Part shown: positions 7,473 through 11,584 of the stretch, in pieces
Layout of the letters: each line of letters opens with the position of its first letter
Position numbering within the stretch: the first letter of the stretch is position 1
Assembly (NCBI GenBank): GCA_014730235.1
Contig: WJIO01000413.1
Coordinates: forward strand, 1-15,418
Source of the DNA: Candidatus Poribacteria bacterium
GTDB taxonomy: Bacteria > Poribacteria > DTPJ01 > WJIO01
Direction: 5' to 3'
Length of the DNA stretch: 15,418 nt
The notes under the pieces: model-generated
Told to the model about the DNA's origin: nothing
The model's input: the letters and a program-made list of their open reading frames with translations, nothing else
The model's database searches: none
Program-made: the position numbers and the translations under genes

Positions 7473-7521
7473 TATCTGAGTCAAGCTACTAAATTTTAGT
7501 TAGTGGTCGTTTAATTAATTT

Positions 7522-7640
7522 GGTTCTTCCGGGTTCAGTTTGGTAAATATAAGAAACTTCTTTATGCTGTCATTACGCCTTCGCAGGAATGACAAGCTGA
7601 GGGAATTTTCAATTATAACCACACTGAGCCCGGAAAAGCC
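7522..7640. mobile_element. MITE-like element copy A (119 bp)
   Basis: A short non-coding element with 23-bp imperfect terminal inverted repeats (7522-7544 and 7618-7640, 19 of 23 matching; outer end GGTTCTTCCGGG). The 73-bp interior holds a hairpin core (TGTCATT 7568-7574 / AATGACA 7588-7594). The interior is identical to copy B apart from one extra T in B. No clear target-site duplication flanks it. Its right end stops one base before the stop codon of the methyltransferase gene (7642-7644), so the methyltransferase transcript runs straight into it and could use its hairpin as a 3' end. The GGYTYTTCCG terminus recalls ISL3-family insertion-sequence ends (from memory), suggesting trans-mobilisation. 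Confidence 0.8.
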
Positions 7641-7641
7641 A

Positions 7642-8418
7642 TTATGTTTTCTGGCTTATAATTACAAACGAGCCACCCACATATGAATTTTCATGATTCC
7701 AGCTACCCGGAGGAAATTCTTTATCGGGCTTTCTGTTTCGGGATAAATCCTCAACTTCTATTATAGTTAATCCTACCTCAATAAGCCTATTGAAAATATC
7801 ATCCATATAATGACGAAATTCAATTGCACCATCTTCCCGAAGATCTAAACTTTCGCAATATGGTTTATATATCTGGTAACCTTCACCATCCCATTTTATA
7901 AAATGAATAGCAGGTTGACCAAAATCTACTCGGAATAATCCGTCTCTCCTTAATACTCTGGACACCTCAGAATACACCTTTTGAATATCTGAAACATAGC
8001 ATATAGCTGTTCCATATACCAGGTCAAAAGAATCATCATCCAGACATGAAAGATCTTGCATATCTCCCTGTATTGTCTTTATTTTGTATCCATAATGTTT
8101 TGCCGCTTTTTGATCTGCATCCAGTTGCCCTTGAGCTATATCAACTACTGTAACATTGGCACCAAGTGAACCAAAAACAGCCGATTGCTGACCACCTCCG
8201 GCGGCGAGGCATAGAACATCTTTACCTTCCATATCCGTAAGAATGCTTTTTGGAGTTATTACAGATATTTTATCGGGCGCATTATCCAATTCTCCCCGGG
8301 AATATTTTCGGATTATATTAACATCCAGGTCTAACCAGGGTATTGTATAGCCACATCTTTCTTTTACCATTCTTTCCCAGTGTTTTTTATTTGCTACCAC
8401 TTCTTCGGGCTTATCCAT
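7642..8418 (-). CDS. Class I SAM-dependent methyltransferase, unknown substrate
   Basis: The 258-residue cytoplasmic protein has a Rossmann methyltransferase core. Motif I is VLCLAAGGG (68-76), the ribose-binding acidic residue is D93 (TVVDI), the adenine-contact region is IQGDMQDLS (116-124), and motif IV-like FDLVYGTAICYVSDI (131-145) precedes an EVSRVLRRDG helix (151-160). The N-terminus (HWERMVKERCGYTIPWLDLD) and a C-terminal about 90-residue part probably form the substrate cap. GGAG lies eight bases before the ATG. The gene sits alone between two near-identical mobile elements. It starts 18 bases from copy B and stops one base from copy A, and a terminator-like repeat separates it from recA and Dabb, so its promoter must lie in or beside copy B. 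Whether it methylates a small molecule or a protein is not visible. Confidence 0.88.
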   Translation of the reverse strand: MDKPEEVVANKKHWERMVKERCGYTIPWLDLDVNIIRKYSRGELDNAPDKISVITPKSILTDMEGKDVLCLAAGGGQQSAVFGSLGANVTVVDIAQGQLDADQKAAKHYGYKIKTIQGDMQDLSCLDDDSFDLVYGTAICYVSDIQKVYSEVSRVLRRDGLFRVDFGQPAIHFIKWDGEGYQIYKPYCESLDLREDGAIEFRHYMDDIFNRLIEVGLTIIEVEDLSRNRKPDKEFPPGSWNHENSYVGGSFVIISQKT

Positions 8419-8436
8419 TATTCTTTCTCCATTTTT

Positions 8437-8557
8437 GGCTTTTTTGGGTTCAGTTTGGTAAATATAAGAAACTTCTTTATGCTGTCATTACTGCCTTCGC
8501 AGGAATGACAAGCTGAGGGAATTTTCAATTATAACCAAACTGAACCCGGAAAAGTCC
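8437..8557. mobile_element. MITE-like element copy B (about 120 bp)
   Basis: Second copy in the same orientation as copy A. Terminal inverted repeats at 8437-8459 and 8534-8556 match at 20 of 23 positions, and the hairpin core is TGTCATT (8483-8489) / AATGACA (8504-8510) with a CTGC/GCAG inner stem. Flanks CCATTTTT (8429-8436) and CTATTTTT (8557-8564) agree at 7 of 8 positions, a probable AT-rich target duplication. The right end is ambiguous by one base (8556 or 8557). It occupies nearly all of the space upstream of the methyltransferase, and on the minus strand it holds ATGACA (8483-8488), 16 bases, TATATT (8461-8466), a weak candidate promoter aimed at that gene. Confidence 0.82.
8461..8488 (-). 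promoter_or_regulatory. Candidate methyltransferase promoter inside copy B
   Basis: Minus-strand ATGACA (8483-8488) and TATATT (8461-8466) with a 16-base spacer would start transcription near 8454, about 36 bases before the methyltransferase ATG. The -35 box is weak. The call rests mainly on the lack of other space between the terminator-like repeat and the gene. A second -10-like TATAAT lies at 8528-8533 without a good -35 box. Confidence 0.3.
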
Positions 8558-8570
8558 TATTTTTTTAGAA

Positions 8571-8633
8571 ATTTATCAACAAAACAGGCTTTACCCTGTG
8601 AATCACAGGGTAAAGCCTGTTTTGTTGATAAAT
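8571..8633. terminator. 63-nt perfect inverted repeat, probable bidirectional terminator
   Basis: Arms of 31 bases (8571-8601 and 8603-8633) are perfectly complementary around a single A at 8602. The inner stem is GC-richer (CAGGCTTTACCCTGTGA), flanked by an A-rich side ACAAAA and a mirrored TTTTGT side, so either strand would give a stable hairpin followed by a T-rich tract. It lies 15 bases beyond the Dabb stop codon (8649), which suits the 3' end of the recA-Dabb transcript, and it would insulate the methyltransferase. The stem is unusually long for a simple intrinsic terminator. Confidence 0.7.
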
Positions 8634-8648
8634 CTATATTATAACCTA

Positions 8649-8948
8649 TTAATTTTCATAGTCAAAAACTAATACGTCTTCAACAATTGGTCGGACAAGG
8701 TTTTGGGCAAGCTTCTGGTGTCCCGGATGCGGAACATAGATATCACGACTGGCGGTATCCTTGAATCTTACAATAAATGCAAAGTCAAATCCAGAATTTT
8801 TATTTTCCGGGCTGTTATTGTATCCCCCTGAAACTTGTAATATTCCTGGTATTATAGACTTGAGTTTTTCCAGTCCATCCATCATATCATTAATTTGATC
8901 TTTGGTTGTATCTTTCTTCAATTTAAGAAGCACAATATGTTCTATCAT
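8649..8948 (-). CDS. Dabb-domain (stress-responsive A/B barrel) protein
   Basis: A 99-residue small protein with the dimeric alpha-beta-barrel (Dabb) pattern: N-terminal MIEHIVLLKLK, a helical segment with a Pro-Gly turn (SIIPGI, about 31-36), and FAFIVRFKDTASRDIYVPHPGHQKL (57-81) with the conserved Y..HP.H motif. The motif is characteristic, but the family has no single reaction and includes plant stress proteins and small-molecule cyclases or decarboxylases. It follows recA by 32 bases with AGGAG ten bases before the ATG, so it is probably cotranscribed with recA, in the place where recX often lies. A link to DNA repair is not implied by the domain. Confidence 0.88.
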   Translation of the reverse strand: MIEHIVLLKLKKDTTKDQINDMMDGLEKLKSIIPGILQVSGGYNNSPENKNSGFDFAFIVRFKDTASRDIYVPHPGHQKLAQNLVRPIVEDVLVFDYEN

Positions 8949-8980
8949 TATTAATTTTCTCCTGATTATCCTTCTGTTTC

Positions 8981-10090
8981 TTACTCAGTATCTTCCTCAT
9001 CATCCAATACCAGATCCGGTTGTTCATCTTCCGGAGTTTCATCCTGATTCTCGGAGTTATCTTCATCCGGCTCTTCATCACGGATAAGACCGATGGCCAT
9101 TCTTACCTCTTTGTCTATTTGTTCAAAAATCTCAGGATTTTCTTTTAGGTGCGTTTTTGCATTTTCTCTCCCCTGTCCAAGCCTTTCATCACCGTATGAG
9201 AGCCATGCGCCGCTTTTCTGTATTATCTTCTGTTCGACTCCTACGTCAATAAGATTACCTTCCTTTGATATTCCCTCATTATACATTATATCAAATTCTG
9301 CTGTCATAAATGGTGGGGCAACTTTATTCTTTCTGATATTGCATGTAACCCGGTTACCTACGGTATCCTGACCGTCTTTTATATTAGAACCATGACGCAT
9401 TTCTATTCTGACGCTTGAGTAAAATTTCAAAGCTCTGCCGCCCGGGGTAGTTTCAGGATTGCCAAACATAACGCCAACTTTTTCGCGAATCTGGTTGGTA
9501 AATATAAGGCAGGTCTTAGTCTTGTTTATAATTCCGCTGAGTTTACGCATGGCCTGGGACATAAGACGAGCCTGAAGTCCTACATGTGCATCCCCCATAT
9601 CGCCTTCCAGTTCAGCCCTGGGAGCCAGAGCAGCCACAGAATCAACAACTATAATATCCATTGCCCCGCTTCTTACCAGCACATCAACAATTTCCAGAGC
9701 CTGTTCGCCTGTGTCCGGTTGTGAAATATAAAGCTCATCCACATTAACGCCAATTTTCCTTGCCCAACTTGGATCTACCGCATGTTCGGCATCCACGAAA
9801 GCCGCAATACCACCAATTTTTTGAGCTTGAGCAAGTATACTAAGACAGAGGGTGGTTTTTCCCGAACCCTCATTTCCATATATCTCAATAACCCTACCCC
9901 TGGGTACTCCACCAACACCTAAAGCAAGATCAAGGGCAAGAGAACCCGTAGGTATTACTGTAACATCCTCCACAGTGCCATCTCCAAGTCGCATTATAGA
10001 ACCTTTACCAAATTGTCTGTCAATTTGAGTTATAGCCAGATCGAGAGCCCGTTTTTTTTCTTCAGTGTTATCATCATTTTTCTTAGCCAT
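8981..10090 (-). CDS. recA: Recombinase A
   Basis: The 369-residue recombinase forms filaments on single-stranded DNA, drives strand exchange and stimulates LexA-type self-cleavage. Visible are the polymerisation N-terminus (about 11-40), Walker A GNEGSGKT (72-79), catalytic glutamate E102 in AEHA, Walker [11 protein letters not shown] (146-155), DNA-binding loop L1 (about 160-172), loop L2 region [20 protein letters not shown] (197-216), and a strongly acidic tail (338-369). Walker A reads GNEGSGKT where GPESSGKT is usual; the essential Gly, Lys and Thr are retained. GGGGAG (10098-10103) sits seven bases before the ATG. It is transcribed from the promoter at 10190-10218 and is probably cotranscribed with the Dabb gene. 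No recX is present in the window. Confidence 0.98.
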
Positions 10091-10178
10091 AATACTTCTC
10101 CCCTTTCAAAGAGAATTGTCTGGTTACGTCTTTATGTATATTTATATATGAGTTACACTTCCAAGTCAAGTCTAACTT

Positions 10179-10190
10179 TTGTGATCACAA
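10179..10190. promoter_or_regulatory. 12-bp palindrome at the recA start site, candidate operator
   Basis: TTGTGATCACAA is a perfect palindrome whose right end touches the recA -10 box and which would cover the transcription start. A repressor bound there would block recA. It does not match the LexA boxes I know (CTGT-N8-ACAG or GAAC-N4-GTTC type). CRP/FNR-like half sites are similar in letters but differ in spacing. Confidence 0.45.
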
Positions 10191-10218
10191 TTATATCACT
10201 ATACTTAACGTTTGTAAA
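10190..10218 (-). promoter_or_regulatory. Strong sigma70-type promoter of recA
   Basis: Minus-strand TTTACA (10213-10218), a 17-base spacer and consensus TATAAT (10190-10195) predict a start near 10183 and a leader of about 93 bases. This is the best promoter match in the window. Its -35 box lies in the left arm of the inverted repeat 10211-10247. Confidence 0.75.
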
Positions 10219-10247
10219 GTGCTTTTTCACAAATAAAGCTTTACAAA
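10211..10247. repeat. Inverted repeat containing both divergent -35 boxes
   Basis: TTTGTAAAG (10211-10219) and CTTTACAAA (10239-10247) are perfect 9-bp arms separated by 19 bases. Each contains TTTACA on the outward strand, serving recA to the left and the UroD-family gene to the right. An inner GTG-CTTTTT-CAC hairpin lies between them. This may be simple back-to-back promoters or a binding site for a regulator of both. Confidence 0.6.
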
Positions 10248-10268
10248 ATGGATAAATAGTGTTATATC
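10240..10268 (+). promoter_or_regulatory. Divergent promoter for the UroD-family gene
   Basis: Plus-strand TTTACA (10240-10245), 17 bases, TATATC (10263-10268) would start near 10275 and leave a short leader of about 25-37 bases. The -10 box is weaker than that of recA. Confidence 0.5.
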
Positions 10269-10299
10269 AATATCAAAAGTATATTCTTTAGTTTAACAC

Positions 10300-11274
10300 A
10301 TGGAAAAAATAATGAAAATACAATTTTCTCCCTCTGTATATGAACATGCAGCTTTTCTTATAGAAAGATCTCCCTGGAACGTTTCTCACGATCTGGAATT
10401 ACTTTGGAAGTCACACAGCAAAGCATACAGGATGTATGAACATACACCAATCGTTGTGGGTATTGATATATATAATATAGAAGCTGAGGCCTATGGCTGT
10501 GTGGTAGATCATCCCAGTGGGAATGGCATACCAGCTATTACCAGAGGTATTATATCATCAATTGAGGATTTTAAGAAGCTCAGAGCTTTTGATCCTGAAA
10601 ATGATGGACGTATCCCCATGATCATTGAAGCAGGTAAAAAACTGTCCGGGGAATTTCCCGATGCAGATATCAGAATACCAGTCAGTGGACCATTTTCCAT
10701 AGCTGTAAGTTTGAGAAGTCTCAGCGGTCTACTGGAAGATGTGGCGTATAGACCGGAATTAGTAAGGAAATTTCTAATTCAACTGGCGGACAATCAGGTG
10801 AATTTATGCAAAGCTGTTATGGAAGCCGGTCTTGACGTTGCTTTCTTTGAGTCCGCAGCCGCCCCACCCTTATTGTCCCCAAAGCAGTTCCACGATCTGG
10901 AACTCCCGGCCTTAAAAAATGCCATGGAAAAGGTAAGTAAGGTTGTCGGTCATCCAGTACCATGTATCATCGGCGGAGATACTGAACCAATCCTGGAAGA
11001 TATATTAAGCACAGGAACAAGTTACATAATATGTCCTGCTGAAACCAATCAAAAGACTTTTATGGAAAAGCTAAAAAATCAAAATAAGGTCAAAATCAGG
11101 ATAAATATTGATCCTTTGACTGTGGCTCATGGTTCAAAAAGTCAGATTTTAAAGGACGTGGATAGAATATTGAAAATGGCCGATGGTAGAGAAAATATAT
11201 TGCTCGGTACAGGGGCAGTTCCTTATGAAACGCCGCCGGAAAATATTATTTTGATAAAAGAATATGTAAGTTGA
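10300..11274 (+). CDS. Uroporphyrinogen decarboxylase-superfamily protein, not HemE
   Basis: The 324-residue product has the UroD/MtaA-CmuA TIM-barrel layout. Signs are IPVSGPFSIAVSLR (126-139), CKAVMEAGLDVAFFESAAAPPLLSP (170-194), GGDTEPILEDILSTG (225-239), NIDP (269-272) and a C-terminal LGTGAVPYETPPENI (302-316). True HemE arginine/aspartate signatures are absent. In cobalamin/CoM methyltransferase relatives zinc is held by His-x-Cys before GDT and a later Cys. Aligning on GDT, these places are I223, G225 and A306, so zinc chemistry is unlikely, although C222 and H218 lie nearby. Start is ambiguous: ATG at 10300 or at 10312. Neither has a strong ribosome site, but GGAAA lies before the second. 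It is a single gene, divergent from recA. Function is unknown. Confidence 0.8.
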   Translation: MEKIMKIQFSPSVYEHAAFLIERSPWNVSHDLELLWKSHSKAYRMYEHTPIVVGIDIYNIEAEAYGCVVDHPSGNGIPAITRGIISSIEDFKKLRAFDPENDGRIPMIIEAGKKLSGEFPDADIRIPVSGPFSIAVSLRSLSGLLEDVAYRPELVRKFLIQLADNQVNLCKAVMEAGLDVAFFESAAAPPLLSPKQFHDLELPALKNAMEKVSKVVGHPVPCIIGGDTEPILEDILSTGTSYIICPAETNQKTFMEKLKNQNKVKIRINIDPLTVAHGSKSQILKDVDRILKMADGRENILLGTGAVPYETPPENIILIKEYVS

Positions 11275-11320
11275 TGTAACTATATGTAATTAAGATACAG
11301 TCAAGTTGTAAAAATGCTAC

Positions 11321-11327
11321 ATATTTT
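11321..11327. repeat. Left target-site duplication of copy C
   Basis: ATATTTT immediately precedes the left end of copy C and recurs at 11567-11573 immediately after its right end. The duplication is 8 bp (CATATTTT at 11320-11327 and 11566-11573) if the terminal C is counted with it. Confidence 0.7.
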
Positions 11328-11566
11328 GGCTTTTCCGATCTGGGTGTGGAAATATAAAAGATACAGAGAATTCTAAAAAATCTCTAAAACCAATGTTTAT
11401 AAGAATTAAGCATGAAGAAACAGATGAAAATGCTCAAAAAATATAGTTCTATGTCATTCCTGCTTCAAGCTTTTTGAAAAAGCTTGAGCGAAAAGGAATA
11501 AGAGTTTCGCAGGAATGACAAGCTGAGAGGATTTTCAATTATAAACCCACTAAACCCGGAAGAACC
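11328..11566. mobile_element. MITE-like element copy C (239 bp, diverged, longer)
   Basis: The ends match copies A and B: left GGCTTTTCCG (11328-11350 region), right end reading GGTTCTTCCGGG on the minus strand (11544-11566), the same as the left end of copy A. The right third (AATGACAAGCTGAG through AATTATAA) is nearly identical to A and B. The terminal repeats pair at only about 13 of 23 positions, so this copy is older. The interior is about 120 bp longer and includes a perfect 12-bp inverted repeat TGTCATTCCTGC / GCAGGAATGACA (11452-11463, 11509-11520) enclosing a second hairpin. The flanking ATATTTT duplication marks it as a transposed unit. No coding capacity is visible. Confidence 0.8.
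11465..11487. repeat. Nested hairpin inside copy C
   Basis: TCAAGCTTTTT (11465-11475), one G, AAAAAGCTTGA (11477-11487): a perfect 11-bp inverted repeat set inside the 12-bp outer repeat of copy C. It is absent from copies A and B. Confidence 0.7.
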
Positions 11567-11584
11567 ATATTTTTATCTTTGGAA

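Follow-up and report, generated by a model that had tools for sequence, protein, structure and literature searches.

Nature of three short repeats in a poribacterial genome

A 15,418-nucleotide stretch of DNA from a Candidatus Poribacteria bacterium (this whole stretch is called the window here) carries three short elements, copies A, B and C, bounded by inverted repeats (Table 1), which raises the question of what these elements are and how they arose. The initial annotation took them for a three-copy, non-coding, MITE-like family; the positions, the ends and the hairpin core of all three were borne out, and no open reading frame (ORF) of note was found in any copy. The genome analysed is a metagenome-assembled genome (MAG) of 5.5 Mb, which is incomplete and consists of 451 contigs with a contamination estimate of 4.77%. 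All data on the two families described below and on their chimeras come from this single MAG and its short contigs, which is the main caveat of the study.

Table 1 Elements of the window and their palindromic cores.
Feature	Positions	Strand	Remarks
Copy A, ISL3-type (alpha) MITE, 119 bp	7522..7640	+	flanks ATTAATTT (7514-7521) / ATTATGTT (7641-7648), 6/8 match
Palindromic core of copy A, degenerate: TGTCATTACGCCTTCGCAGGAATGACA	7568..7594	.	CGTC-1-type REP core
Copy B, ISL3-type (alpha) MITE, 121 bp	8437..8557	+	flanks CCATTTTT (8429-8436) / CTATTTTT (8557-8564), 7/8 match
Palindromic core of copy B	8483..8510	.	
Copy C, mosaic alpha MITE, 239 bp	11328..11566	+	left arm foreign (type a9), right arm standard (a0)
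Palindromic core of copy C, AAGCTT-extended form	11452..11520	.	form also present in unrelated beta family

The alpha family consists of ISL3-type MITEs

The three copies belong to a family of several hundred members, termed alpha, rather than of three, and its copy number is far above chance: the 22-base end GGYTCTTCCGGGTTYAGTGTGG was matched 632 times in the genome and a 31-base internal stretch 224 times (with up to 3 mismatches), whereas the reversed patterns gave no match. The alpha copies are short and dispersed, lack coding capacity and have flanks that differ from copy to copy. Exact 8-bp target duplications surround 59 of the 130 two-ended copies, against 0.8 by shuffling (27 of 57 in an earlier, smaller set), and 82 of the 130 match in at least 7 of 8 positions; exact 9-bp duplications were not found. 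The target sites are AT-rich, with a bias to AAAWWTNT, and of the 42 copies in long contigs 40 lie between genes, in DNA of which 86% is ORF. The MITE reading thus held in the genome search that the initial annotation had proposed for it, given the hundreds of further copies, their varied flanks and their duplications.

The affiliation with ISL3, guessed at first from the ends, gained support as well. The alpha consensus GGTTCTTCCGGGTTCAGTGTGG conforms to the terminal motif GGYTC[AT]TCCGG, and four annotated ISL3 elements, which end in GGTTCATCCGG / GGTTCTTCGC with the motif GGTTC[AT]TC, are flanked by exact 8-bp duplications (8/8; e.g. TAAAAAAA). Because end motif and duplication length both match these annotated elements, alpha elements are regarded as ISL3-type MITEs, and the assignment of A, B and C as non-autonomous ISL3-type elements is supported. 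ISL3-type MITEs as such are already known. The 187-nt MITE of Microcystis aeruginosa PCC 7806, in the part of its published description available to us (PMC11448079), has ISL3-type ends (GGCTCTTCG) and 8-nt direct repeats; like alpha, it forms a stem-loop, occurs in tens of mostly intergenic copies and is ascribed to an ISL3 transposase. It differs in its shorter ends (9 nt versus 22 bp) and lower copy number (about 31-33 versus hundreds), and neither a REP core nor a second family nor any chimeras are mentioned in that part of the description.

An ISL3-family element sharing the alpha ends, for which the initial annotation had proposed a search, was found only in related form. Searches of the MAG with PF01610, with end patterns and, in the retrieved DNA, for long alpha-ended intervals revealed no autonomous ISL3 element with exact alpha ends; the PF01610 matches were three ISL3 fragments at contig ends, whose own ends (GGTTCATCCGG, GGATTCATCCGGG) are related but not identical to the 22-bp end. 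A 1772-bp alpha-ended interval (locus L257) was rejected as a candidate, its 511-codon open frame being unlike a transposase. Contigs of a relative (G004) are broken by a multi-copy element whose ends are related; as the MAG is also incomplete, the missing autonomous element may have been lost in assembly. No alpha elements were detected in the phages, plasmids and viral contigs searched, and an Rfam search gave no match.

Within the window, copy C is flanked on both sides by the exact 8-bp repeat CATATTTT (11320-11327 and 11566-11573), provided that the final C of its end is included; the repeat of copy B shows the same offset. The initial annotation described C as longer and older, but its age is unsupported: C is a mosaic within the ISL3 type, combining the left arm of another subfamily with the standard right arm around an extended core. 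This mosaic structure had been missed before, and so had the status of the hairpin core as a module in its own right that is shared.

The core resembles a REP palindrome and is shared with a second family

The centre of alpha is the hairpin TGTCATTCCTGC-N4-GCAGGAATGACA. Judged by its sequence, it matches the REP palindromes of the CGTC-1/dRS3 type, which are defined by a stem of 8, a loop of 4, a CGTC or TGTC head and a CCA tail (PMC3733652). As in CGTC-1 REPs and Neisseria dRS3, the alpha core has an 8-bp stem starting from AT (ATTCCTGC/GCAGGAAT), a 4-base loop (GAAA/TTTC in 121 of the short cores) and a [CT]GTC head. The CCA tail is present in dimers and in a relative of the same order (G001), which carries such CGTC units without MITE arms, whereas the commonest MITE-internal form, the short one, ends in GAC.

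This core recurs, with all three of its variants, in a second MITE family, beta, which is unrelated to alpha: its ends are GTAATCGTTAAAAAATG and its target duplications are about 5 bp long (exact 5-bp in 20 and exact 6-bp in 6 of 32 copies). Each of the three core forms (short, dimer and AAGCTT-extended) is found in alpha, beta and chimeric elements; the beta copies that lack a core look like deletions. An element at C228:12327-13637 carries the 17-bp GTAATCGTTAAAAAATG at both ends, identical to those of beta MITEs, and, unlike these, is autonomous, with a DDE transposase (402-aa ORF; PF01609, 31.4 bits against a cut-off of 23). Its score with the NCBIfam IS1182 model NF033551 (46.4 bits) lies below the cut-off of 270, so we term it IS1182/IS5-like only; this copy itself has no visible 5-bp duplication.

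The occurrence of one palindrome in both families suggests that the REP palindrome rides on two conventional transposons. For CGTC REPs no dedicated transposase is known, and mobilization by another transposase was left open (PMC3733652). For a REP transposase as the mover of the palindrome, the Y1_Tnp genes, only one each in the MAG and in G001, point neither way. Other Poribacteria (G029) have related ends around a different palindrome, indicating that mobility does not depend on this particular core.

Alpha/beta chimeras lack target duplications

At 18 sites an alpha half and a beta half are joined at the palindrome (21 before L073, L257 and L325, which are nested or composite elements, were removed from the final test). 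None of the 21 has a target duplication of any length from 4 to 9, as expected for recombination products; the difference from alpha and beta is significant (Fisher 1e-5 and 1e-9, or 1.4e-5 and 7e-9 without the three nested cases). Alpha/alpha hybrids with non-cognate arms, in contrast, show a duplication of at least 7/8 in 12 of 26 cases, against 0 of 18 chimeras (p 5e-4), so the presence of a duplication tracks matching ends. Two loci form a before/after pair for deletion between palindromes: at L073 an alpha element (flanks TCATTTTT) is nested inside a beta element with the duplication TATAA, and at L325 the same kind of nest has lost the DNA between the palindromes and retains the beta duplication TGAAT. 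No excess of partners for reciprocal exchange was seen, with 8 matches between flanks where about 22 were expected, which leaves genome-wide reciprocal crossing-over unsupported; local deletion or slippage fits the chimeras better. Nothing relevant on chimeric or hybrid MITEs was found in the open-access papers searched.

Misjoins at repeats could mimic such chimeras, and alpha would then be a plain ISL3-type MITE family in a fragmented metagenome. The number of contigs and the contamination estimate favour this explanation, and 37% of alpha copies lack a 7/8 duplication too. We nevertheless consider it unlikely: usual reads are longer than the core common to the halves (24-73 bp), the 21 loci vary in cores, arms and flanks, L325 has its recombinant interior inside an intact beta duplication, and alpha and beta copies share longer sequence among themselves, yet most keep their duplications.

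Somewhat less likely still, and already disfavoured, is that palindrome-seeking insertion brought REPs into each MITE family independently and that halves were never exchanged. Lone CGTC units in G001 agree with this, as do the REP dimers centred in larger inverted repeats, as in alpha, in H. neapolitanus (CGTC-1) and A. variabilis (GTAG-15) (PMC3733652), but neither the duplication-free alpha/beta chimeras nor the AAGCTT-extended core in both families would be explained. Those dimers have one host palindrome each and no unoccupied form, unlike the palindrome of this MAG, with two unrelated families, chimeras and duplications of known length.

It is improbable that the whole element is retained and copied for the function of its hairpin in RNA or DNA, such as that of a bidirectional terminator or mRNA stabilizer. 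The consensus does form a single hairpin (-77 kcal/mol, z -16.7), 40 of the 42 copies noted above are intergenic, and rare changes are matched in both ends in 23 cases versus 6.75 expected; however, any long inverted repeat folds by construction, subfamily ancestry can yield matched changes, convergent gene gaps are not preferred (1 of 39 copies) and the 8-bp duplications show transposition.

Copies A and B, whose near-identity was confirmed (97% over 108 bp), lie on either side of a methyltransferase-like ORF (7642-8418, minus strand), the stop codon of which adjoins the right end of A, while B sits just upstream of its start at 8418. They share derived bases missing from the genome consensus (GTTTGGTAAATATAAG, and ATTAC for ATTCC in the core). 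That they form a composite transposon with this gene as cargo is very improbable despite their direct orientation, their spacing of 915 bp and these common bases, as the outer flanks ATTAATTT and CTATTTTT mismatch, A and B show separate partial duplications, and their identity peaks inside and drops at the ends, which gene conversion between two old insertions fits better.

Proposed mechanism and implications

We therefore favour, as the probable account, ISL3-type alpha MITEs whose REP core is also present in beta and whose halves have been joined at the palindrome. An ISL3-family DDE transposase would recognize the 22-bp alpha ends, which are seen directly along with the duplications, and insertion into AT-rich intergenic sites would generate the 8-bp duplication. 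At the alpha centre would lie either a REP palindrome of the CGTC-1 type or two REPs joined tail to tail, a dimer that slippage between its GCAGGAAT direct repeats could shorten to the 26-bp form. Beta MITEs, sharing their ends with the C228 element, may be mobilized by its IS1182/IS5-like DDE transposase. Since hundreds of copies share the palindrome, a break or replication slippage there could fuse a left and a right half that come from different elements. The resulting alpha/beta chimeras would be movable by no transposase and hence lack target duplications, whereas alpha/alpha combinations made likewise, such as copy C, would still be mobile.

Short repeats also serve as recombination sites in Neisseria, where Correia repeats and dRS3, a palindrome of the same type, are involved (PMC3454330); there, rearrangements were deduced by comparing strains for breaks in synteny, whereas the present case relies on duplication-free chimeras in one genome. 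Compared with CGTC-1 and dRS3 (PMC3733652), the poribacterial palindromes are set apart by their location inside two DDE-transposon MITE families and by their tail-to-tail dimers.

These results suggest two roles for the palindrome, that of a passenger on mobile elements and that of a recombination joint. The unusual part is that one REP palindrome is common to two unrelated MITE families and links their halves. Carried by MITEs of DDE transposons, CGTC REPs would have a concrete and testable route of spread, and other genomes rich in REPs and MITEs can be screened for absent target duplications as a simple signature. More tentatively, the CGTC/dRS3-type REP might act as an exchange cassette that swaps the halves of mobile elements, giving rise to new MITE subfamilies, with duplication-free chimeras left behind as traces of genome rearrangement; if true, one way in which CGTC REPs spread without a transposase of their own would be explained.

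Size of the alpha family

The initial annotation had described a family of three short elements in the window, and copies A, B and C were located as claimed, with the same ends, hairpin core and right shoulder. The repeat family is real, but its membership is far larger. In the whole MAG (G000; 5.53 Mb, 451 contigs, 91.6% complete), of which the window is contig C360, AATGACAAGCTGAGGGAATTTTCAATTATAA matched at 224 sites when 3 mismatches were allowed and GGYTCTTCCGGGTTYAGTGTGG at 632 when 2 were allowed, whereas the same queries read backwards gave none, indicating that this family (termed alpha, consensus ~120 bp) has several hundred members. Related ends also occur in the MAGs of other Ca. 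Poribacteria; in G001, of the same order and the nearest genome compared, the central hairpin is present and the alpha element is absent.

Copies A and B, whose likeness had been attributed to recent spread or conversion, are 97% identical and have in common derived bases that the consensus lacks, yet the two copies differ in their outermost bases, and the duplication flanking each has decayed, to 6/8 in A and 7/8 in B. This pattern appears to fit recent transposition less well than gene conversion between a pair of older insertions. A composite transposon made of A, the intervening methyltransferase-like ORF and B is unsupported, as the outer flanks of A and B mismatch. Directly adjoining copy B, an inverted repeat of 36 bp, almost perfect (94%) and with a 1-base spacer, lies at the 3' end of another ORF and is probably the terminator of that gene.

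Coordinates of repeats, genes and related elements
Feature	Genome or contig	Position
Copy A	window	7522-7640
Methyltransferase-like ORF	window	7642-8418(-)
Copy B	window	8437-8557
36-bp inverted repeat	window	8566-8638
ORF with this repeat at its 3' end	window	8649-8948(-)
Copy C	window	11328-11566
Beta-ended interval with transposase	G000:C228	12327-13637
Longer beta subfamily pair	G000:C65	13411-13593
Longer beta subfamily pair	G000:C161	3165-3337
Longer beta subfamily pair	G000:C226	10283-10455
Longer beta subfamily pair	G000:C234	4749-4921
Multi-copy element	G004: C8, C10, C17, C21, C23, C25, C29	

ISL3-type ends and target duplications

An exact 8-bp direct repeat borders the inverted repeat in 27 of 57 two-ended alpha copies (0.6 expected); repeats of 4-7 and 9-12 bp stay at or close to background, apart from a small surplus at 7. 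In a larger set of 130, the duplication is exact in 59 and at least 7/8 in 82, and its sequence is rich in A and T (AAAWWTNT). Exact 8-bp duplications also flank four annotated ISL3-family elements, whose ends are GGTTCATCCGGCTAAAGC, GGTTCATCCGGTAAATCG, GGTTCTTCGCGGAG and GGTTCTTCGCCGAT, and alpha likewise accords with a Microcystis MITE with GGCTCTTCG ends and 8-nt repeats (PMC11448079) and with the AT-rich 8-bp target of ISCg1 (PMC8715038). These matching features uphold the earlier ISL3 suggestion for ends and target; the partner transposase, sought between alpha ends, was not found. Searching G000 with PF01610 retrieved only three ISL3 fragments, all at contig ends and with related but different ends. 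Two contigs, C236 and C342 (loci L031 and L032), combine ISL3 fragments with HTH regulators and a primase-like ORF, which gives them the look of contamination or of a mobile element of foreign origin.

The relative G004 (RHO2_bin_7) has a multi-copy element with related ends (GGTTCTTCAGGGTTAAGTGTGG / GGCTCTTCAGAGTTAAGTGTGG) that is itself absent from the bin: contigs break ~52 bp inside each end, and the 8-bp duplications AAAAAATT, TATTTTTT and GACGGTAA pair across contig ends, so elements of this kind readily drop out of MAGs. Another relative, the poribacterium G029, contains non-coding elements of 270-571 bp with related ends and duplications of 7/8 to 8/8; at several loci (L085, L111, L130 and others) these ISL3-type MITEs hold another palindrome, GTAGGGAATAACGATCGTTATTCCCTAC, which is also perfect but distinct from the alpha core; cargo of a palindromic kind may thus be a recurrent feature of such elements.

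The hairpin fold predicted for the whole alpha element follows from its inverted repeat and says nothing for a function. Rare changes that are matched between both ends (23 versus 6.75 expected) may stem from shifts in the alignment or from the ancestry of subfamilies.

The palindromic core and the beta family

The core is a module separate from the alpha element. Palindromes of the form GTCATTCCTGC-N-GCAGGAATGAC gave 693 strand matches (~345 loci) in the MAG. We sorted 245 unique palindromes in the fetched DNA by the sequence bordering each side: 130 have an alpha end on both sides, 32 a beta end on both, 21 one of each (termed chimeras), and the remainder have one side unrecognized; long contigs were sampled because they had matches, so the genome-wide class numbers are estimates. 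The core fits the CGTC-1 REP class, which includes Neisseria dRS3 and has an 8-bp stem starting with AT, a 4-base loop, a [CT]GTC head and a CCA tail (PMC3733652). In G001, units of this type stand alone, with a TGTC head and CCA tail; in the MAG of the window, most units with a CCA tail form tail-to-tail dimers, which MITE arms adjoin directly. The commonest 26-bp core would be such a dimer shortened by a deletion between its two GCAGGAAT repeats.

The beta end, GTAATCGTTAAAAAATG, is unrelated to that of alpha and occurs 235 times in the genome. Beta copies show exact duplications of 5 bp (20/32) or 6 bp (6/32), and one beta-ended interval encodes a 402-aa DDE transposase that scores above the PF01609 cut-off; its nearest NCBIfam model, IS1182, is below cut-off. 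Several beta-ended pairs ~173-183 bp apart constitute a recurring longer subfamily.

Proposed exchange between elements at the palindrome

Across lengths of 4 to 9, none of the 21 chimeras shows a target duplication, compared with 59/130 pure alpha and 26/32 pure beta elements. Without three nested or composite cases the value is 0/18 (p 1.4e-5 and 7e-9). In contrast, alpha/alpha elements with non-cognate arms have a duplication of at least 7/8 in 12 of 26 cases, so that what brings a duplication is a pair of ends of the same type. Copy C is such a hybrid: its left arm (type a9) is found joined to other arms at L177 and L179, while its right arm is the standard a0. The CATATTTT repeat on its flanks points to movement of the whole copy once it had been assembled. 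Some alpha ends (L199, L062, L168, L181) have a common longer flank, AAAACTTCTGATACAGACTAAAAACTTTATTTGTTACTCCGT, which is a further repeat with alpha elements nested in it.

All data come from one MAG, and the chimeras may be misassemblies; against this, ordinary reads are longer than the shared core, and the duplication is retained in one recombinant. A before/after pair is visible: at L073, alpha is nested inside a beta arm, with TCATTTTT on either side and the beta duplication TATAA, and L325 has the same nest without everything between the two palindromes, keeping its own beta duplication TGAAT. Reciprocal exchange products were looked for and showed no enrichment, which makes crossing-over across the genome a less likely origin than a local event between neighbouring palindromes, either deletion or template switching.

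Each of the three core forms, even the idiosyncratic one extended by AAGCTT, occurs in alpha elements, in beta elements and in chimeras, an argument for the passage of cores from one family to another. Recombination would make hybrids, of which only those with two matching ends could move again by transposition; the distribution of duplications is as expected if this is so.
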